A stretch of 64,000 nt of DNA. Origin: Cristatella mucedo. Taxonomy: Eukaryota; Bryozoa; Phylactolaemata; Cristatellidae. The notes below the pieces were generated by a model. The model worked only from the letters and a program-made list of their open reading frames with translations, made no database searches and had not been told where the DNA came from. Of the stretch, positions 7,787 through 47,941 are shown in pieces. How positions within the stretch are numbered: position 1 is the stretch's first letter; the number at the start of each line of letters is the position of its first letter. The position numbers were made by a program, and so were the translations under genes. The stretch covers positions 3,898,501-3,962,500 of the forward strand of contig WPIO01000014.1 in NCBI GenBank assembly GCA_009760855.2. Reading direction: 5' to 3'.

Positions 7787-8780
7787 GTATGTATCACTTA
7801 CTTTCGGCAGCATTCAAGACTTCTCGGCAGTGTAGCAACAGTGGGATCGGGTTCGTTATCTGAAGAAAATGAATGCATAAGCAAACTCTTCCTGCGTTGA
7901 CTTTCGGAGTACGCTTGCCTGGTGTGCTGCTTTTAACACCCGAGAGATTACAGTATGCCTACTGCGGTTGTGTGCGTATTTGCGTGCTCATATGTGTGCA
8001 CCTGCAGGCTTATGTGAGCTCACACTGCTTGTCTCTTTACTCTCATGTTTGTGTGCATGCGTATGTGTGCTCATGTGTGGTTCCCCGGATCCCTGACAGA
8101 TGGGAAGGGAGAGATAGAGAGAGCGGAGGGAGAGGTGGGAGATAGAATTATTGATTAAGTTAATCAGAGAAATAAAGAAAGATAGGGATGTGGAGAGAGG
8201 CAGAGAGACAGAGAGTGAGGCAGAGAGACGGAGAGTGAGGCAGAGAGACGGAGAGTGAGGCAGAGAGACGGAGAGTGAGGCAGAGAGACGGAGAGTGAGG
8301 CAGAGAGACGGAGAGTGAGGCAGAGAGACGGAGAGACAGAGAGTGAGGCAGAGAGACGGAGAGTGAGGCAGAGAGACGGAGAGTGAGGCAGAGAGACGGA
8401 GAGTGAGGCAGAGAGACGGAGAGTGAGGCAGAGAGACGGAGAGTGAGGCAGAGAGACGGAGAGTGAGGCAGAGAGACGGAGAGTGAGGCAGAGAGACGGA
8501 GAGTGAGGCAGAGAGACGGAGAGTGAGGCAGAGAGACGGAGAGTGAGGCAGAGAGACGGAGCAATAGAGAGCTATAGTGAGAGAGAGAGAGAGAGCGCAA
8601 GAGAGAGAGAGAGATAGATAGAGAAATAGAGTGGCAGACAGACAGTGAGAGAGGGAGAGGGAGAACGATAGAGAGAGAGAGACAAATGCAGAGAGGGGTA
8701 GATGTAGAGGTAGAGACAGAGTAAAAGAGAGAGACAGTGGCAGAGACACAGTAGCAGAGGGACGCAGAGAGACAAGTGAC

Positions 8781-8852
<72 letters not shown>

Positions 8853-24640: not shown

Positions 24641-27600
24641 ATGCTAAGGTATGTCAAGGTGCACACATTTTGCCATGGTGCTCACTCTTTGTCTGCCGTT
24701 TCTACAGCAGCTGCTGCTGCAACTGTGCAGGGTACTTGGAGTCGTGTGGCATATTATTTAACGTTGTTGCTTTTTAAGGCCCATGACTTCGGGTCGTGTC
24801 CTGTAGTAAGTTCTTTATTGCATGCCGTGTGCGAACTGTAAGCCACCGAGTCTCTCCTGTCGTTAAATGCATGAGGTGGTTAAATTGGTGGTTTATGCCT
24901 TTATTTTTTATTTTACATGCTTCCCATCTCTTGCAGTCCTCACTTCTAACCGACGACGATCGGCAGTCGGAACAGAGCAGTCTCGGCAGTACACTGTGCG
25001 TGCAGTCGACTGCGACCAGCTCGAGCAATGCAGCAGCAGCTGCAGCTGTGGTTCCTTCTGCTGTTGTCTTCACTGCTGCAAAAGCTCCGGCCACTGCTGC
25101 TGATGCTGCAGCAGAACAAGGTAAGCACTGCCGCGGCCACGGCCAGTCGTGCATGCCTAATCAGTACGCTTCATCCTACCTCATGGTCAAGCTGCAGGAC
25201 CCACTGTGTGGAAGTTGCCTCCTCGAAGCCGTTCCTGCAGGAGGTACGGTTATTAAGTTGCTCTCATTCCGATTCGGGCTGTCCCGATGCTATGAGTCGC
25301 TGCCGCCAGAACTGAACCTCGCAGCCGTGCCAGCCCTGAATTCAAGAAATGAGTCAGCACCCTGGCAATTGCTAAGGCGCGCCAAAGTTGACTTAGGGGT
25401 GACTATTGGTAAGACGACCGGCAGTGTGCCCATTTTAGGCTACCCTTTGGCTCACTCTGCCTTTGTCATCCAAGTTGGCTGTCCTCTATACAATAGAGCA
25501 AGCTTACCTTTGAGGGCAGCAACAGGCAAGGGGGAGGGTGCGGTGGCCCTTTGCTGGTGTCTCCTTGCTGTTTGTAAATCACACGATTTAAGCTAGTCGC
25601 CTGCCACTTGCCTGCATCTCGTCTTGCAAATGCTGCTGCATGTTCGCCGAGGCGTGCCTAAAATTCTTTTGCTCCGTGTTGCCTGTTTCGTGTCAGTGGT
25701 GAAGATAGCCTTTCGACTGGCTAGCTGTGATTTCTTGAAGCATCCCACAAGCTTTCTCTTTTCTTTATATCTGCTTCTAGCCAGATTTCTGTGTCAAGAG
25801 GTCGTGTCAAGGTGTCGACACAGTCAACTGCCCCTTTCTCTTTTTAATAGTTATTCCTTGCAGCGCAGCACTGCCATCTCAAATCTTGTCGTTTTTCAAA
25901 CTTTTGCACTTCACTTCCAATTTGTTCTATTCGATTGTATATATTGTCACTGTTGTATAAAATACCACGAGGCTGCAACGTACGGCCCCTGAGATTGTGG
26001 CACCCGGGATAGTACGAATGTGCACGTGAGAGCCAGTCGTTGTGCTGTGTAAATGCTAGTGCTGCCACAGGGAAGCAAACACCACATAGTTTCAGTTCTC
26101 GATGAAGCATTTGAGTGCTGGTGGGCCAAAAGGGGGGAGAAAAAAGCCCAATCACTCCCTGATCGTTGACTTATTTTGGTGACAGCTCGATTAATAAACC
26201 CTCTGGTGCCTCTTCCGCTGACCAGCCAACAGGAAGCGGATGGTGTGGACCAGCTGGTGCAAAGCAGCCAATCGCCTTTCGTAGGCAGTGTGCGGCGGCA
26301 AGAGCACGAGCGCCTGCCGTTTGAGTTCTCGAGCTTGCAGCAGCCGTTGAATTTGAAGGAGCTCGTGTACCGCGCATTCAGCGCTGCGCGTGTGCTCAAC
26401 CTTTCGCTCGATGTTTGGCTGTGTCGATGCCGGCGTAGTCCTTAGCCTCTAAGCAGCTTTGTTAAAGCGTCGTTTCGGCGTGCTTTTGATTCCATTCTGC
26501 AGACGCGGCTGTCACAGCATCGCTGAGCGTGGAGGCTCGCCCCACTGCCATCGACATCGCCACACCATGTCAGCTTGCCGCGGCTCCGAGCCGGCCCCTG
26601 TCCGGCTTGTCCGAGTGGCAACATCCAGCGGTGGAGGTGGCGCAGACCGAGCCCGGAGTTGCGCAGGCATCGGCTTGCGAGGCTTCTCCAAAGGTTCAGC
26701 TCAGGAGTGCTGCTGCTCAGGCCAGGCAGTGCAAGGCTCATGCTGCAGCAACTGCCAAGGACGACTCGCTGCTCGATCCACAGCTGGCCTACCTGCTGCA
26801 GGCGCGCCTGAAGCGCGTCAGCGATGCCGAACAGCTGCAGCTGCCGCCACCGGATGCCGTCGATGGTTTGGCTGCCGCGCAGTCGCTCGAAGCGGCACTC
26901 GGAGGTCCAACCAGCTCGTCGGAGGTCGGCAGGCAGCCTTTCGAAGGGCCCATTGTCGCCAGAGCCGAAGCCACTGCCGTTGCCGCTCCTGAAGCAGCTG
27001 CATTGCCGTCGGAGGCGGACAGATCGTCGTGCTCCGTCGCGGACAAAGTGTCGTATTTCCTGCGAGAGCAGCTTCGACAGTCGGGCCGAGGCGATCAGCA
27101 GCAGCCTCCGCGAGAGGCCGCCGACTCGAGAGCCACTGGCAGCCTCGGGCAACATGCCGACGAGGCTGCGCGAGGCTCTGGGACTGCTAGCCCAGGCACT
27201 GCTGCCATGGCTTCCGCCACGGCCCACGCAGGCAGCGCCAGCCGGGCGACTGCAGCAGCATGCATTCGACGACGGGACAGGCCGAGCAAGCGCGAGCGAT
27301 CTCAGACGCAGCCCGTCACGTGCAATGAGGTGCTCGCCGCTCAGTGCCTGGGAGGCGAGGCTACCGGAGGCGGCGCCGGTGCTAACCCGGCCACCACCAT
27401 CAATGATGGCATCTGCAAGGTGGCTTCCATCGACGTAGTCGGAGGCAGCGGCCTGGATGCCGTCACCGTCAACAGTCTGGCGGTCATGACGCTCGATGAG
27501 AAGATTCGCCTCTTCATCGAGCGCTCCGTGGTGATGACGACGATGACACTGTCTGCTCGCGAGTCGCCTCAGCCGGCGATACCGGAAGCCGCTCCTGCTG

Positions 27601-30600
27601 GTGGCAGCACCTTTGCTCGCCAGAAGCCGGGCCGGCCAGGCCTGACTCACAAGATGCGTCAGCAGCGCTGCCTCACGCTGCCGTTCACAAGCAGCGACGT
27701 GCGAGAGGCACTGAGCCTGAGAGGCTTGCAGCTGTCCTTGCCTGCCTCGGCAGCAGCGGCTGCAGCAGTTGGGGCAACCACTTCATCGGGCATCAGGTCG
27801 CCGGATCCTGCTGGAACGCTGACCAGCGGTGCCGCTTCTCCAGCAGCCGCCATGCCACCGGCAGAATCGCCTGCTGCAGCGGTGGCACTTGCTTGCCTCG
27901 TCGCGGCTGACGAAGCAGCCGCCGCGGTCCCCTTTGCTAGCATTCCTAATGCGCAGCCGCACGTTCGAGCCGATGCTGCTGCCTCGGCGACGACATCCGG
28001 TGCAGAGCGGCACGCTTCCAGCGGGCATGCAGAGTCGACCAGATCCGGAAAAGGTAGCACCAAGCCCCGCGACGTGAACTCCGGTGGAGGTCACGGTGGT
28101 GCCTACGGCAATCATCGCGAGCCTGTGGCGGCTAGCCGGCCGCCGAGGCGGGATAAGGTCGCCGTGCCACTGCTGCATGCCTCTGATGAGACCGACGCAA
28201 ATGCTCACCCTAGGGACGTCGGCAGCAATCGCACGCAGCCGTCTGCTGTGTCGTTAGCCGGATCGTCTGCTCAACCGAAGCTTGAACAATCGTCGAAGGC
28301 GAAGCCGGACGCCACCCATTCGGCCGCGACGAAGCAGGCGCACAGAACTTCATCGGTGGCTTCTGCCCTGGAGGCAGCCAGTCAAGTGACACCCGATCGA
28401 GCAGACAAGGAAAAGCCAGCGGTGACAACACGAGCGATCGGCAAGCTGTCGTCGTCACCGCTCCGCGATGCAAGCGATCTGCCGTCTGTCGGAGGCGACC
28501 GTCGAAAGGACGAGAGAGGCAGCAATCGTGTTGCCGATATCGACGACGATGCCACGAACGAAAACATGCCTTCGCTCGACAGGGCTCGTCGACCGGCAAG
28601 AGTGCCGAGAGACTCCCGTGACGGTACTCACCATGGCGATGGGCCACCTGCTGCCAATGGCTCGACGGTAGTGCCGGACGTGCCGTCGTACATGCGAGCT
28701 ACGCACAGCCACCTGTCCTACCGAGAGGCAGCAGCCAAGAACGGCGTCGCCACTGCGGAGCCGGCGATGTCGGCTGACAGTGCAGCTGTGACTGCTTCGG
28801 CAGCAACATCTGCAAACCAGCAATGCGGCGTCCGCTCCGAGCCAGCTCTGAGCCATCACGACAGTACAAAGAAGCCCTCGGCAAGGCCATCGGCTTTGGC
28901 AGCAGTCCGAGACGATGGCGACGAGCTGCCTTCATACATGCGAGCCACTAGTAGCTTCGCCCACAAGGTCGAGCATCTGTTCGCCGAGCCGTCGAGTGAC
29001 GAGGACCGAAGTGACGACGATGATGCTCGAAGTGACCGCCGTGTAGCACCGAGCGGGAGAGGCGAACGCGGGACCGGCAGCGGTGGTGGCACGGCTCCCG
29101 AGCGGCCGTTCCCGGTGCGCAGGCAATCGTCGACTGCCACTCGCGGTTTGCAGCAGCAGCAGCAGCGGAACGAGCCGGTGCACTCGAGGACCCCAGCCGC
29201 TGCTCCGAGGGCCTCCTCCAGAGCTGCTGCCGCTTCTGGCGACGATCCGTCAGAGTTAGGAGAGATCAAGATCGAGAGGTCGAGGTCGGTCTGCGCCGAC
29301 GGTGAAGGTGTGCCGTCCTATATGAGAGTGACGGCTAGCTACGCGTCGCGAGTCGAGCCGAAGAGCGAAATCAATGAAGCCGCCACCGCTGAGGTCGGCA
29401 GTGGTGCGACTCACAGCGACGGCTGCAGCGGCGCTCGTGCCACTGCAGCCGTCGTGGCTGCCGCAGGAAAGGAGAAGCGGTCGTCACGTGCAGGCCAAGC
29501 GGCAGCAGCCTCAGCCGAGATCCGGGCCCTCTCGCCGGCTCCGCCAGTGGCTTCGCCCGGTCCGGCTGCCACTGTGGCGACGGCGGCATCGCGGTCTGGT
29601 GCCACGCCGTCGTTCATGCGGCCCACGGCCAGCTACGTTCAGCACGCAGCAGCAGCAGCGCCCAAGGGCGCTCACGACAGAGCCAGCGAGGCTGTTGCCG
29701 TAAGGTCGCCTCTAGCGGAGCCGGCAGGACTTGCGGCCGGCCCATCGATCGCCCGCGCGCACAGCATGAGGGAGGCCGGCGCCACTGCTGCTGCTGGTGC
29801 AAAGCATGGTGCCACCGGTGGTCGCGCCACGGCGGCCGTCAGGCGGCGCTCTTCTGCGGCCAGTGCTGCTTCTGGAGCATCGGCTGCTGAGCACGCTTCT
29901 GGCCACCTGAGCGAAGCCTTGCCTGAGCAGCAGACCGCAGCCGGCAGTAGCGTGGGAGCCGTGTGGGAAGCCTCGGCAGCCGAACTGCCTGAGCTGCCAG
30001 GCCGGGTAGCAACAGCGGCCGAGCCCACAAGTCCCGAGCAGAGCTTAAAGAGCCGCCACGATGAGTCTGAGGCAGCAGCAGCTTCTGCTGCTGCTGCTGC
30101 CTCTGCCGCCTTCATCCTCGGCGGCCAAGCAAAGCCGGTGCTGCAGCCAGACGTCACGGCTGCTGCTACCAGCGCTGCCTCCAGCCGACCCGAGGCCACG
30201 ACCGAGTTCGAAGTGCAAACCGAAGCAGCTGCAGCTGCTGCTTGTGCTGTCTCCCCCAGCACCGCCGAGGGCGAAGAGCGCTCTGCGGCGGCAGTGGCGT
30301 CGAGCCGGCAGCCGACCTTGGGTGCCCTGTGCATAGATACTGGCAGTGGCAGCGTGACCAGCAGCAGCATCCTCAGTCCGGCTGCAGCCGGGACTGCCAC
30401 GTCGGCCGGCTCTCCGTGCCTGCAGCTGTCTCCCACGCCTTCGGCTGCATCCACGGTCGACATGGGTGCCAAGCTGCGGAAGCGTAGCAGCTTGGGCAGC
30501 AGCGACGGAGCCGGTGTTCAGCCATCGTTCATGCGTTCGACGTCGAGCTCGGCGAGGAAGGACCGACACTTGCAAGAGGTCAGCGAGCAGCAGCTGCTGC

Positions 30601-32872
30601 TGGCCGCCGGCGCAGCCAGCAGCAGCTGCAGGAGCAAGGAGAACGGCAGTAGCGGCGGCCATCGTGCTGCTGCCTGTGGCATGCATGCCAGCGCCAAGCA
30701 GCGTCCGACTGGGGCGAAGAAGCAGAAATCGGTCAAAGGTGAGGCGGCAGATGATGACGACCAGCAGCTGTCGCTGCTGCTCGAGCTCGCTCTGTCGGGT
30801 GCACGAGCGAGTGCCACCGTGAGTGTGGTGTGTGACGCTTTCTGTGGCTGCCTGTAGCCACCACTGCTGGTGGACTTGCAGGCCCTGCCCCGAGGCCGGT
30901 GGGGCCCAGTCGAGCGAGAGGTTCAGCCCAGCCAGCTAAGCACCGATTTATTGCTCACTGATCTGCCCAGGCACCGATGCCTTATGTAATGAGGTATGCT
31001 GCCCTTGCTCCTGCTTCCAGCTCCTTCTCAGCACCGAGTAAGAGGATGTGGTGGAGGAGGCTCGAACGAATCACTGGACTCGACGGCCTCGAGCACCAAG
31101 CGCGAGGGCAGACGTTCGTCTGCCAGCACTAGCGCGGCCACTGCAGCAGCAACAGAGCAGCCGCCAGCGCCGCCCGCAGCCTACAAGTGGCAGGCATCGA
31201 GCTCCTCCAGGTGAGAGCAGCAAGGCAGCGCCGAAGTGCCGGCTTCTTGCCGCCCGGCGGTACTGCCGTGCGTCACTGGCAGGCAGCAGCTTGTGCTGGC
31301 GCAGCCTTCCCTGCGAGCAGAGCTATGGCGTGCGCTCTTGCATTCAGCTGTGTCGCTGCTGAATGCAGCGAGTGCAGTCACTCATGCCGTGAAAAACCCC
31401 GGACACAATACTCTGGTGCTCTGCCTTTAATGGGCTTGTTGGCTCAGCCGGGTGGCCTTTCTCTTCCCCCTTTTTCCTTTTGCGATCCGTCAGCTGCTCG
31501 CTGCAATACACGACTGGGGGCCGCCATCGCCGGCAGTGGTCCTCTGTCCCTCGCGATTGCTCGTGCCTGACCACTTCTGTGCCTCCCAACCCGAGGGACT
31601 CGCCGGTGTGTGGCATTTCCCATGGCTAGCCGGCACCCTTTTATGGATAGGTACTTAATATGTGTCCGCGGGCCGGGCGAACGAGACAGGGACAGGCTAT
31701 TGATCGGGTGTAATGTTTGCCGCCTCCCTCTTATAGTGCTGCGCCTGCATCAGTCATTCTGCTGAATGCCTCTGTGTGTGTGTGTGTTGCTAGGGGCCAG
31801 GGAATCGGCTTGCTCATTCTCTGCAGATGGTAAGTTCAACGGTCCTGTTTTAGTTTTTCTCTTTTTGATTTCCGTTGTTTCTCTAAATGTGCCAATGTGC
31901 ACGGGCTTATGCTGCGGTACAGTGTTTCGGCTGCAGTGCTTTGCTGCCCCTGTTTCATAATTAGAGGTGTCATTCACTGAAAGGAAGCACCCCCCCTTCG
32001 ACCCCACCCACTAGGGAGGACCAGCTGCCTCTGCACCTTCTCAAAGGCTGCTATCTGCAGTTAGCTCTTTGCAACTTGGGTGCAAATGCAATTGGCCTTC
32101 CTTTTCGTCAAGTCGTGTGTGGCGATGTTGTGCTGCTCTCTCTGCAAGTGGCCATCTCTCCTCCCGTCCATTCTCTCTGTCTCTCCCTCACTCTCATAAG
32201 CCCTCCCACATTGTGATGTACCTTTACCTCTTTGATGCAGCCAAGTCCCACTCCTCAGGCAGGGGCAGGGCGTGTCTGTCCGCTATTGTGTAGCCGTCTG
32301 CTACATTTGTTTATGTCAGCAGTTAGTCGAGTCAGTACAGCCAGATGATGCTGCTCATATGTCAACTGTAGCTGGCTTGAGGATGTTATTTTACGAGCAC
32401 CAAGGATTTTACTTGCTTTGTCGAGCAAGCTCTCGCTTTAGCTGCTGCTGTTGCAGTGGCTGCAAGCATAGTATGCAGCAACTGACAGCTACTTCTCCCT
32501 GGTACTTGCTCTGATGGGAAACTGTGCATATCAGCAGTCTATTGCTGATAGCATTCTATGCTTTCTGGTACACTCTACCTACTTATGTGTACCGTGCACC
32601 ATCTCTACTGGAAAGAAGCCTATCTAACCCGCTATGCAATGGGAGCTCGACTTAGCATGATCTCCGTGTTTCATATGTCGTCTGGTTGCTATGCTTTAAC
32701 ACACAGACATATACTCCCAGACAGACCCAATTTTTGCTGTACACTGTTTAACTAGCTCGAGGATGCTGGAGCTGGCTGCAATAGCACTTGCAATTGTCCC
32801 TGTCGCTGGTTCACCTAACCGGCCGCTGTTAAAGCATGTACAATCGGCCGTTGTTTAAGTATGCCCTCTCAT

Positions 32873-32991: not shown

Positions 32992-35900
32992 CATGTATGC
33001 ACGTGTCTATGCATGCGTGCTTGCTCGAACTCCCTGTACTGTCTAGTCCATTTTTCTTTCCATTCTCCATGCTTAGTCAAGTCGGTGTTCGTCTCGACTG
33101 GCTTTGTTGAGGTGATAACAGTGTGGCAAATCACCACATGCAGCACATTTATAGCTATCTATTGTTTAATTCCACACTTAGCTAAATTGCAGGCTTAGGC
33201 AGGCTGTGGACCCACACTTCTTCTATCGGCTTTTCATGGTAACTTGCTGCAATTGAAACTTCGGTGAACCTTCCAGATCGGCATGTGGGCTGAAGGTTTG
33301 GGTGAAGTGCACGCTGTGTCCACTTTTATTCTCAGCGAGGCAGCAACAAAGCACGCGGAAGTCTCCTCAATGCACCCGACCGCTAAGAAAAGCAAGGGGC
33401 AAAACCTTAGCCTGCAGAGCGTTTTGATCGGGGCACTTCTGCCTCACGTTGGCGGCAGCCCGTGCGAGTAGTTGACGTCGAACGTCAAGTCGCACACGTA
33501 TGCAACAATCCTGACGAAGACCACGGTGCTTAGGGCGGTTGCAAGCGTCAGCACCGCTGTGCCAGCTGCCCTCTTCGCGAGCCAGCTCGTGCTGCAGGCC
33601 AAATTCGCGTACCTCAGCGACACCCAGCCACGCCCACACCAGCGTAAGCTGGTTGCCACAGTTGACTCGTGTCCGCTTCTGCCGCGGCCGTGGCCTGTGT
33701 TGCTGACTGCCCCTACCCCACATGCCTCGCTAATGGGGGCAGCATTGCTGCCTTTCGGCACTTTCGGGCAGGCTGCAGCTGGAGTGTCTGCAGCCGGAGG
33801 AGCATTAGCATTAGTGATCGCTCTTGCCGGCGAGCTCTGCTTGCTGCGCCGACCGCTACTGTCTGTTGCTTTTTGGCCTCGATTCTTGCTCACGTCAGCG
33901 TTTGCACCTTCCTCTTGGTGAACTGCTGCCGACTCTCCTCGGGCCGTCCTGTGTCTGCTGCTGCGGCTGCACCGGCCAGTGGACGCAGAGCGGCCTGGAC
34001 TGCCCCGGGGGCGCGAGCAGCCGATGTGGCCGGCTCGCAAACTGCATGCAGCGGCTGGCTGAAGCGCGGCGCCATGAGGCGACCGCGGTTCGTCCGACGC
34101 GATCTCGGTTCGAATGCTGCTGGCTCCATCGGGTGCGCCGTTGCTGGCTGCTAATCTCTTTTCGACCTGAGCTTCGGCGCAGCCAGGCGCACCGGCGCAG
34201 CCAGGCGCACCGCCACAGCCGTCGTTCGTGGTGGCTGCGGAGGGGTCTGACAGCCGAGGTTGGGCTTTTGGCGATCGGTGGCCGTGGACTGCACTCTTCG
34301 TCGCGATAGGCGTTCTCATACGCACAGAGTCCGAACTTGTTGCTCTCGGCTGACCGACCCGCTGCCCGCCGCAACTGCCACCGACCGGGCTGCTGGCTGC
34401 AGCACGCAGCGGCAGCCGGGGCGATGGCTGTGATGAGAGCGGCAAGACGGGAGCCGGCGGCTGGCATTGCATGGCTATAGCTACGTTCTGCGCCGAAGCA
34501 GTGGCGACTGCTTTCCCGCTGCCGCTGATCCTCGGTTTTGCCGCTGCTGGGTGGGCGTCAGGCGTCGCACCTGCTGCCACTCGGGAGGCTGCTGCTCCGA
34601 TGAGTGCAGCTGGTGAGGCCGCTTCGTGGCTCCCAGGCGGCTGCTTTTCGCCAAAGCGCACACCCTTGGGGGGTGAAGCGCAGCTTCCACCACTGCCACA
34701 GCCACGCTCGGATGACTGCCACTTAGGTGCTCCGCTCCTGTTGCGGCAGTTGCCTCCCGTGTCTGCTGCTGCTGCCACTGCCATTGCCTCGGCCTCTGTA
34801 TTTCCTGCCATGGAGGCGCCCATCACTGAAGCAGCAGCAGCAGCTGCCGCAGTTGCTGGCCGGTGGGCCACGCCCAACAAGTAGTCGGACTGCGCTGCTC
34901 GGTCGCTCACTGTCGCAGTGGCAACATATGGAGGGCATTTTGTGTCCATACCACCAGCAGATGACCCGAAGGGGCTGCCGGTTAAACCACACCGTGCCAT
35001 CGCTCCCCTGCCTCGGCCGCATCCAACAGAGGCTTGATCGCCTGGCTCTGCTGGTAGCTGCTCAGTGCAGCCGGAGCTGCTTTCAGCGGCCCCGCCTGAC
35101 GGCCGAGTGGCAGCAGCTTGCCTCGTTGTCCTGCAGCTTCCGCCAGCCAGCCCGGCAGGCCCTGCATCAGCAGTTGCTGTGGCGCTTTGCTCTTTGGTGG
35201 CCCTGCGTTCGTCTTTAGCAGACGGCAGGATAAGGGCTGCTGCTGTCGGAGGGCTGCTGCGCTTCACAGCCGGCCGGGCCGATTTTGAGTGCTCTGGCAG
35301 ACAGCTTGCTGAGGGCTCGCGGCTCCTGCTTGATCGGCCCTGACTGACCTGCATCGCCGAAGCCGTTGCCACCTTTGCCTCGGTGGCAGCGCGCTCGCCT
35401 TGCATTTTGCCACGGCGCCAGCCTGGTGAACGAGTCCCGGCCGACTGCTGCCTTTGGCCATGCGCCGAGCGACTGCGCCGAGGAGCTCCACTTGCCTTCC
35501 TGCTCGGCCGACTCCTTCCGGCTTTGCTGCCCGACCGAGCCCTTGCCGATCGCCGCCTGCTCCTTCTTCTGCTGCTCGAGCAGCTGCGGCTGCTCGAGCG
35601 CCCAGAGCTGTGATGGCGACTCGTCCGCGACGAGGCGCTCATCCTGTGCCGCCCCCGCAGACGGCTCGAGTCGCACCGCTTACCGCTGCTTGCCGACCGG
35701 CGGTGCGGTGATAGCTGGCGCCCGCGCGACTTCTTTTGTCGCCTGCCCGATTTGGCCGGCGAAACGTCCGCCGTGCCGGCAGTGGCGGGAGCGGCGGCAG
35801 CAACAGCACCAGCGCCGGCAGACTCAGCGGTGCCGCGCTGCTGCCGCTGAGTCTGCCGGTGCTGGTGCTTGTCGTCGAGACGCCGGCGCTGCCGCAGGTC

Positions 35901-38900
35901 CACCTCTTTCTTCAGCGAGCCCAGGTGCTCGGACACGCGCACGAGCTCGGCAATGAGCTTCTTCAGCGGCGCCACGTCGTCGCGCAGGTGCCTCAGCAGC
36001 TGCGCGAGACCGGGGGCGCAGCCACTCCCGCTTGCCTCATCCGAGCAAGGCGGCAAGAGCGGGCCGTTGCACAGTTGTGGCCATTGCTGTTGCTGCTGGA
36101 GCACGCCCTCGGCCTCACCGACACCGGCCAGCAGCTGGTCGAGCGCTTTCGACACGAACAGGCAGGCGTCCTGCTGCAGTGCCTCGCGCTCCTCGATGGC
36201 CAGCAGCTGCAGCACGTGCTTGTCGTGACTGGTCGTCGACGGTGTGGCAGGGGCGGCGGCAGCGTCGTCGGGCGAGGCGCAGCCGGATGCTGCTGCGGAA
36301 GTGGCAGCTACCGGAAGCGTCCGCAGCAAGCGGGCCTCTTCTTGCCGCCGTGGCATCAGTCTAGCGCCAGCCAGAGCGCTAACGACGGCAGCCAGAGTGC
36401 CGGCTTGTCGCTTGCTGGCTCCGGGGTGGGGCTGGCGGTCCTGGCTGTGTGTGCTACCTGGAAATGTGCGAGCAAACAATTTTGCAAAATGTGCTGGCAG
36501 TGCGGCCCGGGACCCCACCAAAGACCTAGCCGGAAACTCCTGTTAAACGGACGAGTGCCTTCGTGCACGTCGGTTTGGGGCTATGATGCTACTCACCCGG
36601 TAGTGGCAGCAGCTGGCAAAGCGCACCAGCAGCAGCGCTCGAGAGTAGCTGAGAGTCAGCAGTAGCCAAGTGTCTGCAGCCAAGGACCACTTTATGTTGC
36701 CTGTGCGTTCATCGGCTGCAGCAGCGGCCTTGCTGCCGATCTTGTAGGCCTTTCGGTAAGTTGGGGCATCAGAGCATTGCTTCGACGAGGGCGTTCGTTG
36801 TAGTTGTAGCGGATGCGGGTCCACGCTTGAATTGCTGTCAGCATGCACGAGCGAGTGCTGTCCTCGAATGCCCGGGCAGCTAGCTCTGTCGGCTCAAGTC
36901 CGTTTCGCTCGGCGAGCAGTTCTCGTCACCAGAGCTCTTTGCTGCTGACTCTGGTGACGCCCGGGCCGGGTGTCTTAGGGCAGCCTCCAAGCCACACCCC
37001 CTGCTACTTAGAGCTACCACTCAGCCACCCCTGCCACCCCTTGTCGTGGCACTGTCGGGCTCCGCCCTCACTGCGTGCCAAGCCAAGCCAGGTGCAGGTG
37101 CTGCCGTACGTTTTCTTACCTTCCACGACGAACCGGCTGGGCGAGGGCGTTTTCCTGCCTCCGTGAAAGTGCGTCAAGTTGCCTGCCGATTGTGATGTCA
37201 CACCGGTAGCCAATTGAAGCAGCTCTTCGACGCGCTGCCACCAAACCTGTCAGCTTTGCTTGGTGTCGGCACAAGTATTGGCATTGCAGCTGATGGGTAG
37301 CTGCTGGCTGCCCTGGCGCAGATCTGCTTGGCCCCGTGCTACAGGGGAGAGAGAGGGGAGCAGATGGAGCCGTGCCTTGCCATGCAGTACGCTGCAGCAT
37401 TTGGCTAACCATGCTGCCCGACCGCTTCGAGGCTCTATAGCTGGTGGCGCTCGCATTTCCGTGCAGTGGAACCACGGCTGGCAGATTCGATCCTCGTGAG
37501 GCTGTCTGCTCCGGCAGCGGCATGGCGGGCGACTCGAGGCACGTTGTGCTTGAAGCCAGGCAGCTAGGAGCTAAGGAGAGCGCGACTACGGCAGCCAAGC
37601 TGAACGGCCTCGACGGCTCGTCTGATGAAACCATTGCTGCGCCCATTGAATCACCGCAAGACTTGGGCTGTAAGCTTTCTGTTTCAGAGAGGTAAGATGC
37701 CGGCCGCATCGATGACTTCAAGCCGTAGCTGCTTTCCCTGTGCGAGAGCTCTTTGCTACCGACGTTATGTAGTCTCACTGTTTCACTACCTGAGTGGTTC
37801 TATACCCAGACCTAGGGGTGGGGTGTGCTGCTTGCTAATCGTTCTTGCATGCAGCTAGCTTGATATGTCGCTAGTGATGGATGTGACGTGCCAACGGTTA
37901 ATGGATTTATCTTGAGGAGCGGGAGGGGCAAGGTGAGAAAAGGGATTGGGTCGCAGGACGCCGGCCTCCCGTGTCCATCGCCGTGAGGGTGCCGCTGAAA
38001 ATAACATGAGGTATTTGACATCGCAAACGCAACATTTTACTTTGCTATAAACTAAGCCTTAGGCCAGAGCGTTTGTGTATGCACGCACATTCTCGTATGA
38101 TCAGGTGCTCGCCCACTGGCTTGCTTGCAAATGCACCCCAAAATTCTAAAGTTTCGTTTGCTGAAAGGGACTGTGCCCACCGTGACGTGTAAAGAGTTCG
38201 TCAATGTCGTTTTGCTCTCTTTTGGCTCCACCGCAAGTTATATTCGCAAAACGCTTGACAACCCGAAGGGATATCTACACCTGCCAGAGAGAAAGAGTAT
38301 GTCATGTAATGAGTCATCGTGAGTTAAATCCCACGACCTCCGGAAACAGAGGCCCATTTGCCAGTTGCCAGCAGGCAACTGTTGTAAGCTTGACCTGATC
38401 TGGCAATACTTTGTGTTTGTTTACTTTGATCTCCTCTACCAGTCCTCGGCCGAATGAATGCGAGCGGCTGGCTAGCGATCACGAAAAAGCCAACGAATCG
38501 AACATAAACCACACTATTCCGGTAGGTCGACCCGTGCAGGCAAAGCAGTAAGCTACTCTTCGAATGCAGCTAGCTCGTGTCCCCGATGGACCGACTTTCA
38601 CTCAGCTGGTTGCTGCATAAGCACCTTATGCTCGAGAAGGGTCGGCTGCCTTGCCAGTCACGTGTGTGCTTGCATCCGATCTTGCTGGCCGTGCCACCGA
38701 CGCAAATAAGCTCCAGCATAGCCAACCGGCGAGTCACCGCACGTCTCCTTTCCAGGAACTTGCTCTTCTGCACTCTGCTGCTGCCACCTGTGCTGTGGCG
38801 CTTGCATGACGCGGCTGCATTGCAGTTATCGTTGTGCCTCTCCCTGCTTGCTCACCAGTCCTGGTTTCAGGGAAGAGTCGGGGGGTGGTGGTGGTGCCTG

Positions 38901-39039: not shown

Positions 39040-42000
39040 ACCCACCCACCACCATGCTATGCCAGCAGCAGTCGGCAGTCCGGCTGCTGGCCGCAGGCAG
39101 CCTGTTTCAGCCGTTTCTCTTTCCGCCGCTGCATTGTTTGGCATGCTGCACGTCGTCTTGATTCAAAGGTCGCCACAGCAGGAAGCTTGCACGCAGAAGT
39201 AAGTGCAGCGCAGTTCGTCTTGCCCCCACGTAACGTACGATCCTAAAAAAAGACAATCTAGTGGGTCCGTCCAGGCACGGCAGCTGCGCTTCGGGAGCCG
39301 TTGCCAGAGACTAAGGCATGCGTCCGGCCGCATGCAGGCTCATTGTGTGCCGTCTGCCCTGGGTCGTCTGCGCACACTAAACCGCAGATTTGTGGCGCTA
39401 CGCTGCTTTTGTAATGGCACGGCGTGTGCACTATCGCACCAGCAGTGCATAGACTCACTGCAAAAGCGTCGGTCTCTGCTGCAAGAAATCCGCCGTGCAG
39501 GGAGAGCCGAGGAGCTGCCCTGCATCGGCCGCTGTAGCTGCCAAGCACGAACTCTGCGTAGCCAGCTGCTACCGTCCCTCAGTTCGTTGCGCGTGCTTGG
39601 CACAGGCTTTTTGCTAACCCCACGTGTTGTCGCAGCTCTCACCAATAACTCAACACTGTCTGGAGTGTTACTAAGTGAGCAGCCCTGCACACATTTTGCT
39701 GCTGCAGGTGGCCTCAGAGGCAACGCTGTCTACACTTGCTGTCTGCAGTGCAGCCGTAAGTGCAGTGTGTCCCGCATCAGCCGTACGTACTGGTGCGGGA
39801 GAGCTGGGGAAACCAGAGACGTAGCAACCTCCTCTTACCCTGCCTCCATGCATTCTCACTGGTTCGAGTCAGTGCAGGCATAGCTCGAAACCCTCTTTTT
39901 GAAGACTGTCCTATGGCTGTGTGTGTGTGTGTGTGTGTGTGTGTATAAATATATATGTATGCATGTATGTATGTGCATGCATGCACACATGCATGTATGT
40001 ATGTATGTATACTCCGCCATGTCTAAATGGCCGAATCGCTTCGAATGGATCGGTCAGCGGTGAAGCAAACCGCCGTCGTGGTCATGGCTGGTGCCAATTT
40101 GTGTGCCTCATCACCACCCCAGCCGACATCTGCGAGTGGCCATTGTTTTCCTGAGGCTGGCCACGGCGCTTGCCCAGAGGCAGCAGCCAGCGCAGCTCAA
40201 TCGAGCGCTTGCAGCGGCCGAGCTGACAGATCTTTTCTCCTGTAACCGGCCGCTCGGCCACCGGTGCTCGCTTTCACCGCTGGACGGTGTTGCCTGCCAC
40301 CTGGTTCCCGTGGCCTCGGCAGGTCGGCCGATGACCCCTCCCCAGCTTGCTCTGACGACTGCCAGCCCTCTCATGGCGCCATGACCAAGGTCGCATCGTT
40401 CCCGCTGCAGGTTGGCCTTGCTTAAAAAGAGCGGCAGCGAAGAGTGGAAGAAGCGTCTCAGCAAGGCTGGCGACCTCGATGAGGCGCCCGTCGCTAGCGC
40501 TGGCAGTGGTGGCAGAAGTGGCGGCGGCGCCGTGAGCATCGCCGACCGGCTGAGCAAGATGCAGGAGCACTCGCAGCGCTGGCAACAGAAGAAGGGCGTC
40601 GAGAATGATGCCGTACAGTTCACGGCTGAGGCTAAGCTAGCGTCGAGCAGTGCTTCGGAGGAGGCCATGGAAGAGGCAACGGCAGGCGGCAGGCAGATGC
40701 ATGTGAGCAGCCCGCTGATAGCCTTGAAGCAGAAAGCGGTCAAGCGTGCCTCGTCGCTGAAGCTCAAGTCAGCAGCCGGTGAGTGGCCAGGACATATGCG
40801 CGCACCCCTGCCAGCAGCAGCATGGCACGTTGCCTCGCTGGTGGTGCCTTCTGTTACTCCGAGGTGCAAATGGCAGTCAAGAGTCGGCGGGAGAGCAGGT
40901 GTGGGTTGGGTGCTCTTTATCGTGTGCAGCTCTTTAGCTGCTCCATTTGTGGACAGTTTGATCTTTAATGGCGATGCTTTGTTTTGTGGCACGGCATTGC
41001 CCGGTCAGTTGTGGCACTGCTGCCTGGATCAACCACGGTGGGTGTTACATGTTCAGCAATCACAAGCAGCCCTCCCCCCCCCTACATCCAGTGTGTACAC
41101 TCTTTCTGATGAGGGCTCTACTGCTTTGCTGGCTGGCTGGCTGCTAAGGTCAGACGTAATTTTCTCCTGTGCCCCCCCCCCAGCCCTCAACTGGTGTCTG
41201 TAGAGCACTTGCTCGTGCACTGCTGCAGGCGTTAGTTAGCAGGGATGAAATCAGCATGCCCACTACTGGCCCCCACACACCTTGCTCCATCAGCCAACAC
41301 CAGACCCGACGAGCAGAATGTGCAATCATTTACATGCTTGGTAGGCACCGAGAATGGTATTGCAAGTGGCAGCATTGTGAGGCCCAAGTCGATGTTGCTG
41401 GGTCACTCACCGGCCTCCTCCACTAAGGCAAGCCAGGTCGCCAAGGAGGTCAAGGTACCTAGCATGGAAGACTTGTCTGCCTTTTTTGCACCAGCGTCGT
41501 CAACTGACGATTCAGACCTTCTTACCGATGTGGATCTGTCTCGGATCACCGCTGCTCCAAATGTGTAAGCATGTCGATTGCTTTTCATTCGGCTTTGCAG
41601 AGGGGCAGCAGCAGCAGTGGGGCATATGAGTGTCTGTGTTCTCTTTCGAAGGCTGTCATCTGTCGTGCGCATTAAGCCGAAGAGGAAAAATCATGGAGTG
41701 GCCAAGAACCCTGTCAAGGCCCTGCTGAACAGGGACGACCTTCGCACGGCATACACTGAAGTCATTACCACCGGTCCTACAGCTGAACTACACCCTGCCA
41801 GTCTGGTCAAGTCAGTATGTAAGTGTTTCATTCATTTTCATTCTATTCAACGGCGTTTGTATGCATGCTTAGCTAGTTAAAGCAGTTTGCGGAATTTATC
41901 TTTTAATTGTTATCATGCTCATGAACTTGTCTAACTAAAAAGTTCTGAACTGTGAGGCTGGCACATACAGATTTCTAAACTCAGTGGCTCCCAGTGATAT

Positions 42001-45000
42001 TCCTAGGATATTGTGCGCCCAGGGACGATTTGCACAGATGCCCCCCCCCAGTATTAGGCGCCCATTTTGTCGTCCCCTGAGCCAGCGCCCCTAATCCAGT
42101 GCCTGGGGACATATGCTCTCCACCTCCGCCCCCTTTGCTATACAAGTGCTGGCTTCAACTTGTCTGCTGCTGGTAGACTGCACACCTTCTATGTCCCTCT
42201 TACACATGCTGTTTGCAGTTTGTCACCCTACAATCATTAAGATCTTAACCTCTATTTGCTACTCAGGTGTTTTTGCTAGTAATGAACTTATGCAGAATTA
42301 AAGAGATGCGAGGTGTTAGAGTTGGCTTGGACCATGGATTAGTCGCTCACACCATGCAGAAGTGGCCTGGTGGGGTTACTGGCTGGTAAGGCAGCTAAGT
42401 CATGATGTGGCCATCGAAGTCCATCTACCGACGTTTTAGCTCCAAAGCTTAGGAAATCCACAATGAAACTGGCAGCTTTAGATTCGATCTCAGAGTCGGT
42501 CTGACCAAGTCAGGTCTAGATACAGCTCGTAAATAAATCGCTTGGTAGACCTCTGGTATATGGCTGTCCAGTGGGTTTTGTGGTCATTATTACTAACTAG
42601 CACTAGATATCGAAGGCCAACAGCAAGATGTCGTTTTAGCTGAGTACTGCAGTCAGAGAAAATGTGGGCTTTGTCAAGAGCCAATAATCTAACACCCAGA
42701 CACCAAAACTTGTTTTGTTTTAGGTTTTTTTGATCTCATTTTGATTCTTTGTTCCAGATATTATACTAAGTGATTTTATCATTCACTTTGATGTTCAACA
42801 GATTCTGCTTAGTGCCGATTTTCCTGCATAGGTCGAATGATTTTCTCTTGTGGCAAATGTGCACGGCCCCAGTCACAAAAAAGGTCACGTTGTCGATCCA
42901 ATATTCTCCCTCGATTGCACGGTGTCAGCTTCTGTTATCACCAAATTATTATCTGACCGCACGTGGTTCTCGGTCTCTTTGCACCTGTGTTCCGATTGGT
43001 ATCTTAATCTGTCCGTGAATCCAAAGTCTAAAGAACCTTGTCGTTTATTGCAGGTCACTAATGAATAGCACCTGATGCTAGGCATGGCCATTGAGTGAAC
43101 CAGGCGAATTATTACTGCCAGAATGTTTGCATGCAATGCAGCCTGTCGTACTCCGGGCTAGGAATTTCAACCTGCATGTCTGAAAGACGAGTGTCAGAAT
43201 GATTCTTCCATGGCCAGCCTACGGTGGCAGCTGCTTAACTGCTTGCAGCTGGGCTGGGTCTTTGGCTCACCGAGTGTGCCGCAGGCGGTGTATCCCGCTC
43301 TTTCCCTCTCTCTCTCTCTCTATTTAAAAGAAATTAAAAAAGTAAAGGCAAGCTAATTCAACAGCCTCACTCATATGGCAGCAGAAGAGAGCTAGGAGAT
43401 ATCCTTCTGCTTGCTTGCTGCCAGCAATAAAGGATTGCTTGCTCCAGGTCTCGAACCCACGATCTGAGTCGTGCAGAACGAGCACCTTAACTCTTATCGT
43501 TTTTGGCTGGCGGCAGCATTTGCATGATGCCTTGGTCGTCTGGTGCATCCAAATCGCTTACGAAAGCATGTTTACTCGTATCATTCATTCTTTTGCCCAT
43601 TCAGCTTTGCGCAGCCATCACTTGGCCAAGGAAGCTCTCGCTGGTCTCGCTAGCAAGGAGAACTTCAAGAAGGTTGCCCTCAAAAAGATGGACATCCACG
43701 AAGCCGGCTCTCTCCTGGGCGGAAAGGAGATGCTTCCATACAAGGAAATCATGCTGCTCCAGATCAAGGGCCGCAGGCACGTCCAGACTCGCCTCGTCGA
43801 GCCTCACGCTGCATCTGTCAATAGTGGCGACTGCTTTCTGCTCGTTCTCAAGGACAGTATCTATGTCTGGTACGGTGAATTCGCCAACGTTGTCGAAAAG
43901 AGCAAGGTGAGGGGCCATATAGCTGGATGGCCACATCCATCTGGCCAAGCTGCACACAGCCGCTCGGCTCTCTTTCTGCGGCTGCCTTCTTGGAAATCAG
44001 TGCAGGATGGTTCTGTATAAGTTCCTTAATGGTTGCAATAGCTTTCCTTTCCTCATGCTGCCTGGTCTGGTGAATGTAATAAATCCACTCTGGTCTGGTG
44101 AATGTAATACATGGGCACGCATGCTGATGAAAGATTTGGTATTTTTTCACTAGAAGCTACAGTGACTGTTTTGCGCTGCGTCACCACATTACCGTGCATT
44201 TGTGTGCAAGCGCCGATCCTGCATGTCTCCATTTCCTGGTTCATTGGACCAGCTTCCTGTTGCATCCACTGCAGGCATCCGAACTAGCGACGTTCATACA
44301 AGCAACTAAGGATCTGGGCTGCAAATCGGCTCAGCATGTTATTGAGATCGACGAAAGAAAATCGCCGAGCCTCATGTCCATCAAGCAGTTCTGGAACCAC
44401 CTGGGCGGCAGGAGAAACTACGCAAGTATGCACCACGTGTGTCAGTCGGCGTGGGAGCACGCTTGCAGCCGTGAGCTGCCTTGGTCGTGTGCTGGTTGCC
44501 TCGCAGTCTTGGCAGCCTGTGTCGTGCTCTATGCTGAGCACCTTCATGAGCTGTCTCATCACACCGAGCCACTGGCTGGACGTGATGAGATCTATGTCAC
44601 AGCGAGGAGGACTCGAGCCCAGCTCGAGCCAGCTGGTGCTCAGATTTGCAGCCTCCACCGACAAAAACATAAGCCCGGTGTCCTGCACTTGCAGCTTCAC
44701 ACGTGGCTGCAGCTATTCACTCGTGCAATTAGACCCGCTGGCCTAGCCCGACGTTGCGGGATATGCTTCAGCTCGTTTTTGCTAGTTTCTGCATCTCCAG
44801 CCCTATCCTTGTCTTTGACAGAGGCTGGTTCATCAGAAGAAGACGAGCTTTACGAAGAATACATCACACAGACGAACCTGGTGTACGTCGTCAGGGACGA
44901 AGAGCTCGTGCCGCTGGAGCAGTACTGCGGCACGCTGCCCAAGTTCGAGATGCTGAACGAACGCGAGGCTAGTACCGAAGGCCACCTCCTCCCCACTGCT

Positions 45001-47941
45001 GCTGCTGCTGCCATTCACCACCGCCACAGCTAGCTCGAGATCGCACGCTGCTGCTACCGTCATCTTCTCCTTGTCATGCGATGCTCTCATGGCCTCGGTC
45101 TTGATAACGATGGGCTCATGCTCATGCTCGCGCGCTGAGTCGACACTTACCTGCAAATGTTCCGTCCGTCTGTGTTTGCTCGCACGCACGTTTGTCGTAG
45201 CTTCACGTTGCGCGTGCCTAGCCGACGGTCTTTTGCTGTCGCGCTTGAGGCGCGAGGGCCGAGCCGGCACACACTGAACGTGCGCAGCACCGAGGCCCGG
45301 CCGGCCGGCTGGCCGGTGGAGGCGCCAGCACTCTTGCCGAGCTGCTCACTTGCTTCGCGCTCCACCGCAGATGCTCGTGTTCGACTTTGGCACCGAGCTG
45401 TACGTCTGGTATGGCCGAGAGGTGCCGCTTGACAGGCGAGCCGTGGCGCTGGAGCTGGCCAGGCAACTGTTCGATCAGGGCTACGACTACGCCGAGTGCA
45501 ACATCAACCCGATGTCGCCCTTGCTCGGTGCGTGGCTGCCTGCAATTCGCCTCACCCCACTGCAGCAGGCCGACTGCTGCAGTGGGGCGTGGCACTTAGT
45601 TGACACACCGGATTATACCGGATTCATCGCATGCACCTTGTCTCTGTGGGCCCGTGGCCGAGCGTCTGCCGCGTGGCATGCGTTGCAGCTCACGACAAGG
45701 GCGGCATGCCTCTGAAGAGCAAGCAGCGGCCCAAGTGGTGCCTGCTGGCTAAGGTCAACCAGAACATGGAGACGGCTCTGTTCAAGGAGAAGTTTCAGGA
45801 CTGGCCTCCAGAGCCTGTCCGCGCAGCGACCATCGCAGCCAACAGCACGACTGGCGACAAGGAGAAAGACTCGGCACACAGCGGTGGCAAGGCGAGCTCG
45901 TCCAGCAACATCGCTGCCACCTCGGCGGCGGAGGAGCTCAGGCCGTGCGACGTTGGGCCGATGCTGGAGCCGACCGGCGGCCGATCGCCGGTCACGCTGC
46001 TGCTCGAGAACACCAACGTGGGCCGTGGCAGCTACTGGCAAGTGACCGCCGGAGCTTCGAAGACAGCCGCAGCAGCTCTTCGCGACTCGTGCACGGCGGC
46101 CGCTGCCCCTCGTCGGTGCGCGCCCGGTGCCCGTGATTTGAGTGGCTAGCATGAAATTCATGCTAGCTGCGGCCATTTTATGATACTCGTCACCGCCTCA
46201 GCCGTTGCCCTCGGAAGTAAGGACCGCTGATGGCGAATGAGCACTCCAGTCAGTCACCTGCAGCCACCAGGGCCTGCCAGCTTGAGGATAGATAGGCGGT
46301 GAAGTGCTGAGGGGGCTGTCTACTTGCAGGCCCCTAGCACTAGGGGCGCCCAGGCCAGTGCTACACACAACAGGGAACGCCCACTAGCTGGTTTCCCAGG
46401 TCATACAACTGCTGGTCGGTATATCTTGTTCGACTGAGCAATTAAACCAGGCACCTATTTGCCAGCAGCTAGGTGCCAAAAATATGAGTACGTGTGGTCT
46501 TTTGAAGGCCGAATCTTAAGCCGAGTTTAATGGCTCGCTCGGCAACAGGTGCCGGTAGCATTCCCATCTATTCACTTGACTGTAATCCTGCTTCCACAGT
46601 GGAGGGGAGGGAGCTCCCCTTTCCCGGCGCATAGGGGCGATGCTCCAGCCATTGGGGGGGGAGAGAAAATGGGGCTTCTGTATGTGTGTCATCATGCTCG
46701 AATGCCCACCCATGGTTGGGTTTGCCTGGCACGTTTGTGTGTGCATGCACACACGACCAGCAGCTGTACTAACTGATGCCTTGATTCTGGGTTCAAAGTA
46801 CTCGTTTTAGTGGAAGTGCGTGCAATACTCCATTGAATGCTCGCAAGAAACACGTTAAGACTGCTGAGATGTGAAAGATTTTGGGTGGCACCGTGGGAGG
46901 GCTGGGGAAGGGGAAGCCCGCGCAGCATGCGAGGCTACATCGGATGCACCACCACCGGGGGGGGGGGGGGGTGGGTGGGTCGATGAAGAGCAGCTGCTCT
47001 CACTGTTCGCCTAGCGCCGGTGCCGTGACATAGAGTTTCAAGCCAAACGCTTCGATCCTCTCGTCCGTCGATCACAAATCCTTCTCTGTCGAGTGGGGGG
47101 TGGGTGGGGTGGGGAGGCATTGGAGGCGGTGAGGGCAGTGCTAAAGGGCCCTCTGCCGCTGCCATGCAGACCGCACATTCAAGTTCTATGTAGCTGCTCG
47201 TGCTGCAGGTGTGAGTTCGAGGACGGCCTGAAGAGGGAGTACCGCATAGAGACGACAGACGTGCGCGTGTGGCACGTGCTGGACTATGAGCACCGCGAGG
47301 TGACGTCGCCATCAAGTTTTGGCCAGTTTTTCTCGGCCGAGACGTACATCGTTCGGTGGCAGTACGTCGTTCAGCAGCTTGGTGAGTGGCAGCAGAAGCA
47401 GCCGCAGTGGCGCACATCCTGGGCCGCACCCCCATGGAGGCGGCCACAGCATGGCAGACTTGTCCTTCAACCAGCTGGCAACTTCAACGCTGTCCTTCAA
47501 CCAGCAGGCACGGCTGCTGCGTAGCATTGGCGCAGCTATGCGTAATTCGCTGCCATCTTTTTCTCACTCGATTTCTTTGGCTTTCTAGGTGTGCGTGACC
47601 TGCGAGGCAACACGAGCAAGCATCAGCTGGCGACCCTGGGTCGCGAGAGGCACGCCTACTTCTTCTGGCGAGGCGAAGACGCTTCGGTGAATCAGAAGGG
47701 AGCTCTGGCTCTGACGACCGTGGAACTCGATAAGGGAGCCGGGCCGCAGGTGAGCAAGAGGCGCCGTCAGAGGGGAGGGGCAGTGGTGTTAGGGCCCGTA
47801 GTAGCTGCAGCAGGCGCTCACGAGGTGCAGCGAGGCTCAAGCCTGTAGGTAGCCATCGTGCGCCCGTGACGTCCAACCTGTCGCTGGCTTGCTATGTGCT
47901 CGACCTCCGCATGGACAGACGAGGGGATTTGATCACCCACT

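Follow-up and report, generated by a model that had tools for sequence, protein, structure and literature searches.

What is encoded by the long open reading frame (ORF) that lies antisense to the supervillin gene of the bryozoan Cristatella mucedo? The ORF occupies the minus strand of a 64,000-nucleotide stretch of contig WPIO01000014.1 (assembly GCA_009760855.2, positions 3,898,501 to 3,962,500; hereafter the window), within an intron of supervillin, a regulator of actin and myosin, and it ends in a hydrophobic segment followed by a short tail whose last residues resemble those of nesprin-2. We consider it probable, from the sequence, that the product of this nested gene is a KASH-type protein, tail-anchored in the outer nuclear membrane. 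Such a product had been proposed in a preliminary description of the window, and it is supported as a candidate by the ORF, its coding signal, the membrane segment and tail, a second tail ending in YVNGLPPT at another locus (C687) and a SUN domain encoded in the same genome. Formal KASH membership hinges on SUN binding, and to judge from its features the product most likely works as a KASH protein. We call it a candidate because its terminal LPPT lacks one Pro of the animal consensus PPPX and differs by one step from the plant consensus (V/I)PT.

The minus-strand frame is free of stops across 33444..36542 (stop to stop), and its first ATG, at 36356, gives an ORF of 970 codons (33444..36356, stop codon included), while each of the five remaining frames of the region carries 12-21 stops. 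None of 4000 randomised sequences attained 970 codons: the longest ORF was 590 codons in 1000 dinucleotide shuffles of the region and 735, 863 and 785 codons in Markov sequences of order 2, 3 and 4 (1000 of each), and the Gumbel p value for the ORF length is ~4-7e-5 on the Markov sets, uncorrected for the remainder of the window. Three-base periodicity is raised to 7.8 over the ORF, compared to 49 for the large supervillin exon and 0.9-1.6 for four further stretches, including one (36.6-38.6 kb) with a small supervillin exon; values of at least 7.8 were reached in 0, 1 and 1 per 1000 sequences of the three Markov sets. When read in 351-base sub-windows the periodicity is uneven within the ORF (mostly 2-10, with dips to 1.6-2.0), falls to 0.3-0.4 directly upstream of the ATG (sub-windows starting at 36.35-36.65 kb) and attains 2.7 and 5.1 in isolated sub-windows outside the ORF. 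We read this GC-rich region (66% GC) as a real coding exon with biased composition, and the claim of an uninterrupted 970-codon frame withstood the comparison of its length and periodicity with randomised sequences.

The predicted protein has a single strong hydrophobic segment on the Kyte-Doolittle scale, residues 934-955 (33492..33557, minus strand), which follows AKRAAGT: the best 19-residue mean is 2.08 at residue 934, and the runner-up in the protein is 1.16. The predicted lumenal tail, residues 956-970 (33444..33491 with the stop codon, minus strand), ends in NYSHGLPPT and would comprise 15 residues past Cys955, or 22 if the segment stops before Arg949, inside the range of 8-32 residues given for KASH domains in the excerpted text of PMC13200780. 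Counting the last residue as 0, Tyr-7, Gly-4, Pro-2, Pro-1 and Thr0 coincide with nesprin-2 YTNGPPPT (sequence from PDB 4dxs). Tyr963, at position -7, matches the place of the hinge Tyr of nesprin-1/2; according to the excerpted text of PMC10827754, KASH sequences except JAW1 have a conserved Tyr as the hinge residue that separates the inserted C-terminus from the KASH-lid. Among the 457 ORFs of at least 60 residues in the window, the ORF alone terminates in PP plus one of T, L, V, I, A or F, and its last eight residues score 31 (BLOSUM62) against nesprin-2, compared to a maximum of 11 for the other 456 tails; among 200000 random tails drawn from the composition of the ORF, two attained 31. 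Under this composition the probability of Tyr, Gly, Pro, Pro and Thr in register is ~1.4e-7, for a motif that was chosen after the fact. No Cys is present at the nesprin-2 disulfide position (-23), the closest being Cys955 at -15. The preliminary description had already singled out the lone hydrophobic segment with its 15-residue tail, the nesprin-2-like last eight residues, the KASH5-like shortness of the lumenal part and the missing disulfide Cys, and these points hold up.

Because the tail motif had been picked after the fact, we sought an independent test in the organism's own genome, an assembly of 572,011,866 bases in 688 contigs. The DNA pattern for Y-x-x-G-x-P-P-T-stop occurs at 12 places, two of which have an open frame of more than 100 codons and a preceding membrane segment, namely the window ORF and C687:2525742. 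The frames of the other ten span 5-77 residues; by eye, two look reverse-transcriptase-like, and in two cases TGG takes the place of the stop. Similarly, of the 10 matches to [HNDY]-G-[LF]-P-P-T-stop, a second pattern that overlaps the first in part, two show a 19-residue hydrophobicity of at least 1.6, again the window ORF (2.08) and the C687 frame (2.19), with 1.12 as the next value and two frames too short for scoring. The second KASH-like tail (C687:2525742-2525768) consists of a strong membrane segment and then QPVCCDYSGGGGGIWGLSKDYVNGLPPT before the stop; the C-terminus of the locus reads ALVGLLLALYLQPVCCDYSGGGGGIWGLSKDYVNGLPPT / RRRRVALRATVAAIWSFALVGLLLALYLQPVCCDYSGGGGGIWGLSKDYVNGLPPT, i.e. 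YVNGLPPT. The GLPPT end is common to both frames, and a BLASTP comparison of the C687 tail exon frame with the ORF gave the last nine residues as the top match (67% identical, E 0.027), the rest being at chance level. With its Asn-5 and a Cys-Cys after the membrane segment, the C687 tail looks like an animal KASH domain. Two GLPPT tails in one genome suggest that LPPT may stand in for PPPT in this lineage.

The remainder of the C687 gene was sought upstream of the tail exon. Joining this exon to the nearest upstream open frame via a GTGAAG donor was rejected as out of frame, for a GTGCGT donor at C687:2525200 the phase would fit, by arithmetic only, and Pfam returned nothing for three upstream frames, nor did a PDB search for one of these. 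The canonical pattern Y-x-N-G-P-P-P-x-stop gave a single genome match (C665), which was discarded, as it is open for about two dozen residues and has no membrane segment. The Pfam KASH profile, run over the genome in six frames at E up to 10, produced 25 matches (best E 0.0036), none of which extends to the model end; the 12 that were read are mostly leucine-rich or poly-Leu hydrophobic stretches, none with a KASH-like end, and on these 12 of 25 matches the profile revealed no convincing canonical nesprin tail. Such a tail may be split by an intron or may have diverged as at C687.

Canonical SUN-domain exons are present at C11:6255734-6259682 (E 5.9e-11 and 5.8e-7; the reading begins GQCWAFRGSEGYLVVRLAL), and this canonical SUN protein is the likely partner of the KASH tails. 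Weaker SUN-domain matches at C77:1747674-1758641 (E 0.001 and 0.012) resemble SUN proteins of the SUCO type. We infer that the ORF, transcribed from the minus strand, would yield a protein whose single C-terminal segment inserts post-translationally, so that residues 1 to ~930 remain cytoplasmic and 15-22 residues reach into the perinuclear space. This tail would hook a SUN trimer: GLPPT would occupy the pocket that lies between neighbouring SUN protomers, and Tyr963 would form the hinge facing the SUN KASH-lid. On the cytoplasmic side the N-terminal helices might serve for dimerisation or for binding to a cytoskeletal partner, while the part rich in Arg/Ser and Ala/Ser could act as a flexible arm, perhaps a phosphorylated one.

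Several observations weigh against assigning the ORF product to the KASH proteins. At the C-terminus, Arg949 falls within the hydrophobic segment, Leu replaces the first Pro of the animal-typical PPPX, and segments of at least 1.6 are also found in 43 of the 457 window ORF tails. The nesprin likeness is weaker over 17 residues, where the nesprin-2 comparison gives 20 against 14, and where 38 (nesprin-2) and 288 (nesprin-1) of 200000 random tails attain the respective score. Profile comparison of the C-terminal residues with KASH sequences did not recover the likeness either: the last 40, 59 or 99 residues have no Pfam match, including PF10541, and the last 59 no PDB match, at E up to 10. In control searches PF10541 matched nesprin-2 (2.1e-16) and nesprin-3 (8.6e-15) and left a KASH5 peptide (20 letters, with one added letter) unmatched; because the profile also misses this peptide, its failure on the ORF leaves non-nesprin KASH types possible. 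The tail motif by itself occurs at chance level in the 572 Mb, as the backward controls gave 12 places for the first pattern and 11 for the second. The C687 tail is likewise missed by PF10541 and by PDB KASH chains (best PDB E 0.38, cortactin) and therefore remains a candidate too, and part of its 108-codon frame is a long stretch of Ala encoded by a GCT repeat. With supervillin as the training set, codon usage ranks the ORF frame top of six over the full ORF (0.126 vs 0.073) and nonetheless gives its coding status little backing: the frame wins in just three of nine sub-windows wholly inside the ORF (four of 11 overlapping it), ranks fifth of six in the sub-window that contains the tail, and has a synonymous usage correlation no better than that of two other frames (0.871, 0.860, 0.859). 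The context of the start codon at 36356 also looks poor, as judged by eye.

As a rival explanation, the ORF could encode an ordinary tail-anchored protein of the endoplasmic reticulum or the mitochondrial outer membrane, with a coincidental PPT end and no SUN binding. Tail-anchor-like ends are common (41-43 of the 457 window ORF tails), the Pfam KASH profile does not match and the first Pro of PPP is lost to Leu; on the other hand, the five residues are in register at the low probability given above, though for a motif noticed after the fact, and the genome contains a second GLPPT end preceded by a membrane segment; we hold this explanation to be unlikely. Still further down we place the notion that a GC-rich intron happens to hold a long open frame by chance and no gene at all, which seems very improbable: randomised sequence at 66% GC averages longest frames of ~275-347 codons, the ORF composition is rich in Ala, Ser and Arg and the codon-usage ranking is weak, yet the 970 codons exceed every randomised sequence, the periodicity is raised across the ORF, the other five frames are interrupted by their 12-21 stops, and a splice-like signal lies at one end of the ORF with a polyadenylation signal at the other.

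The splice-like signal bears on a further alternative, compatible with a KASH-type product and altering its N-terminus only, in which the ORF forms only the final coding exon of a longer minus-strand gene, with further coding exons upstream, past 36.5 kb. We rate this alternative as improbable, if less so than the two preceding explanations. A good acceptor is located ahead of 36457, and the frame is open to 36542 when unspliced; a candidate intron of 139 bases (36458..36596, minus strand; CCGG/GTGAGT ... CACATTTCCAG/GTAGC) with consensus donor and acceptor would begin at 36596, with the exon resuming at 36457, and splicing to the 36596 donor keeps the ORF frame open for 37 codons past the junction. 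Against a longer coding region, these 37 codons contain no ATG before they run into a stop, and the periodicity in this part is the low one noted above. Because the spliced extension offers no ATG before its stop, the start remains at 36356 and the candidate intron would be 5' untranslated. At the other end, an AATAAA polyadenylation signal (33325..33330, minus strand) begins 114 bases past the ORF stop and is one of three minus-strand AATAAA sequences between 26 and 50 kb. A retrocopy of a known KASH gene was also considered and rejected, a poly-A run beyond the polyadenylation signal not being seen by eye. The ORF is most likely a protein-coding gene antisense within the supervillin intron, and as far as seen a single exon holds its entire coding sequence.

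The cytoplasmic part of the candidate KASH protein begins with a helical region (residues 37-169; 35850..36248, minus strand), for which alignment-free structure prediction gave two long helices (mean pLDDT 67, pTM 0.35, with 85-90 at model residues 101-130). The second helix is matched at residues 113-163 by the Cep57 microtubule-binding profile (Cep57_MT_bd, PF06657) with E 0.024-0.026 and 15.4 bits, the cut-off being 31.3, and this weak likeness is a lead only. No Cep57 was found in a PDB search of the N-terminal coil, which gave four weak matches, the best being a NEMO coil (E 0.42). A paralogue of the N-terminal region was not found in the genome besides the region itself (other matches at E 0.11 and 0.28, both with stops), and no relatives were found in viral contigs. 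An Arg/Ser/Lys-rich stretch, with limits set by eye, spans residues 203-315 (62% R, S or K; 35412..35750, minus strand) and is followed by a long Ala/Ser-rich region. With Pfam at E up to 10, the whole ORF matched no family and its pieces matched Cep57_MT_bd alone, which agrees with the earlier statement that the cytoplasmic part is unlike those of known KASH proteins. We read it as a putative helical coil, an Arg/Ser-rich stretch and a long Ala/Ser-rich linker, an arrangement new for a KASH candidate. A bolder proposal, which we regard as a long shot, is that the ORF represents a kind of animal KASH protein distinct from nesprins, KASH5 and JAW1. With a Cep57-like microtubule-binding coil at its N-terminus and an Arg/Ser-rich arm, it would link SUN to microtubules or to the centrosome directly, with no motor adaptor in between, in a lineage whose KASH tails would have shifted from PPPT to LPPT.

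The ORF lies antisense inside a supervillin intron because plus-strand supervillin exons flank it on both sides; with the identity of the gelsolin repeats, these exons confirm the nested position given in the preliminary description. The host intron runs from 30739 to a point ahead of a plus-strand exon that finishes at 37691. Upstream of it lies the large supervillin exon (26490..30738; open from 26490, donor CAAAG/GTGAGG, 5' limit undefined), which comprises ~1400 codons, is Ala/Ser-rich and contains the motif PS(Y/F)MR-x-T-x-S five times. Downstream, a small exon (37600..37691, start undefined) ends in KLSVSE(R) with donor AG/GTAAGA and joins in frame to an exon beginning with (R) (40411..40720; acceptor before 40411, exon end undefined), and the peptide across this junction resembles human supervillin. 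An acceptor of the small exon in phase with the 30738 donor was looked for and not found, so that a further small supervillin exon may exist. Supervillin identity is reinforced by an open frame with a gelsolin-repeat exon (43346..44017, plus strand; Pfam E 3.8e-5, gelsolin chains to 1.6e-15) and by sub-threshold gelsolin repeats at 48867-50303 (Pfam E 0.0034) and 47546-47845 (E 0.038). The end of the gene at 54767..54853 (plus strand) looks like a headpiece C-terminus, and further stretches in the window look supervillin-like as well. The frame at 9075-10085 looks like the first supervillin coding exon, and directly upstream of it is a large GA-rich imperfect tandem array (8193-8867) with the 20-base unit GAGTGAGGCAGAGAGACGGA. 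A minus-strand reverse transcriptase fragment (52506-53210, Pfam RVT_1 E 6.4e-19) lies past the supervillin frame at 48.9-50.3 kb and before the headpiece-like end; a plus-strand fragment at 61716-62357 is reverse-transcriptase-like by eye and had no match in a Pfam search.

KASH proteins determine which cytoskeletal machine pulls on the nucleus, and a new type would lengthen the list of nuclear linkers. Family profiles can miss short non-nesprin KASH tails, and if LPPT tails are real, searches anchored on PPPX or PF10541 overlook KASH proteins in some animals; a combined scan for pattern and membrane segment is a cheap way of finding such tails. The surprising parts, if true, would be the LPPT tails and, were the Cep57 match real, a direct microtubule link. 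The antisense nesting also makes the ORF and supervillin a test case for coupled expression.

How does the candidate compare with known systems? Our literature searches returned no report joining a KASH protein with Cep57, and none on KASH tails among the titles listed for KASH plus LPPT. The likeness to Cep57 is a weak profile match at residues 113-163, well short of the PF06657 cut-off, and Cep57 is absent from the PDB matches of this region. With KASH5, a meiotic dynein adaptor, the ORF shares a short lumenal tail and a coiled-coil cytoplasmic part, and the KASH5 peptide too is missed by PF10541; by contrast, the KASH5 tail PPPTWPHLQLCYLQPPPV has its Tyr one residue nearer the end, lacks the Gly and carries a full PPPV, and the ORF has no EF-hand family match in Pfam. 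Six KASH genes are known in the human genome, as stated in the excerpted text of PMC5371868, and the cytoplasmic parts of KASH proteins are diverse, the tail being their only shared part (excerpted text of PMC13200780). The plant WIP and SINE KASH proteins resemble the ORF in having short tails without the nesprin Cys and an x-P-T end; they differ in being plant proteins and in their terminal motif, which in plants is (V/I)PT (PMC13200780, same excerpt). JAW1/LRMP (KASH6) is likewise a non-nesprin protein with a non-canonical KASH tail, but carries His at the hinge where the ORF keeps Tyr (PMC10827754, excerpted text). Unlike nesprin-1/2/3 (PF10541), the ORF has neither spectrin repeats by Pfam nor a PF10541 match, and its tail is shorter, with Leu instead of the first Pro of PPP and without the Cys of the nesprin disulfide position. 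What it shares with the nesprins is a C-terminal membrane segment and then a tail with Tyr, Gly and Pro-Pro at the spacing of nesprin-1/2, closed by Thr as in nesprin-2 and -3.

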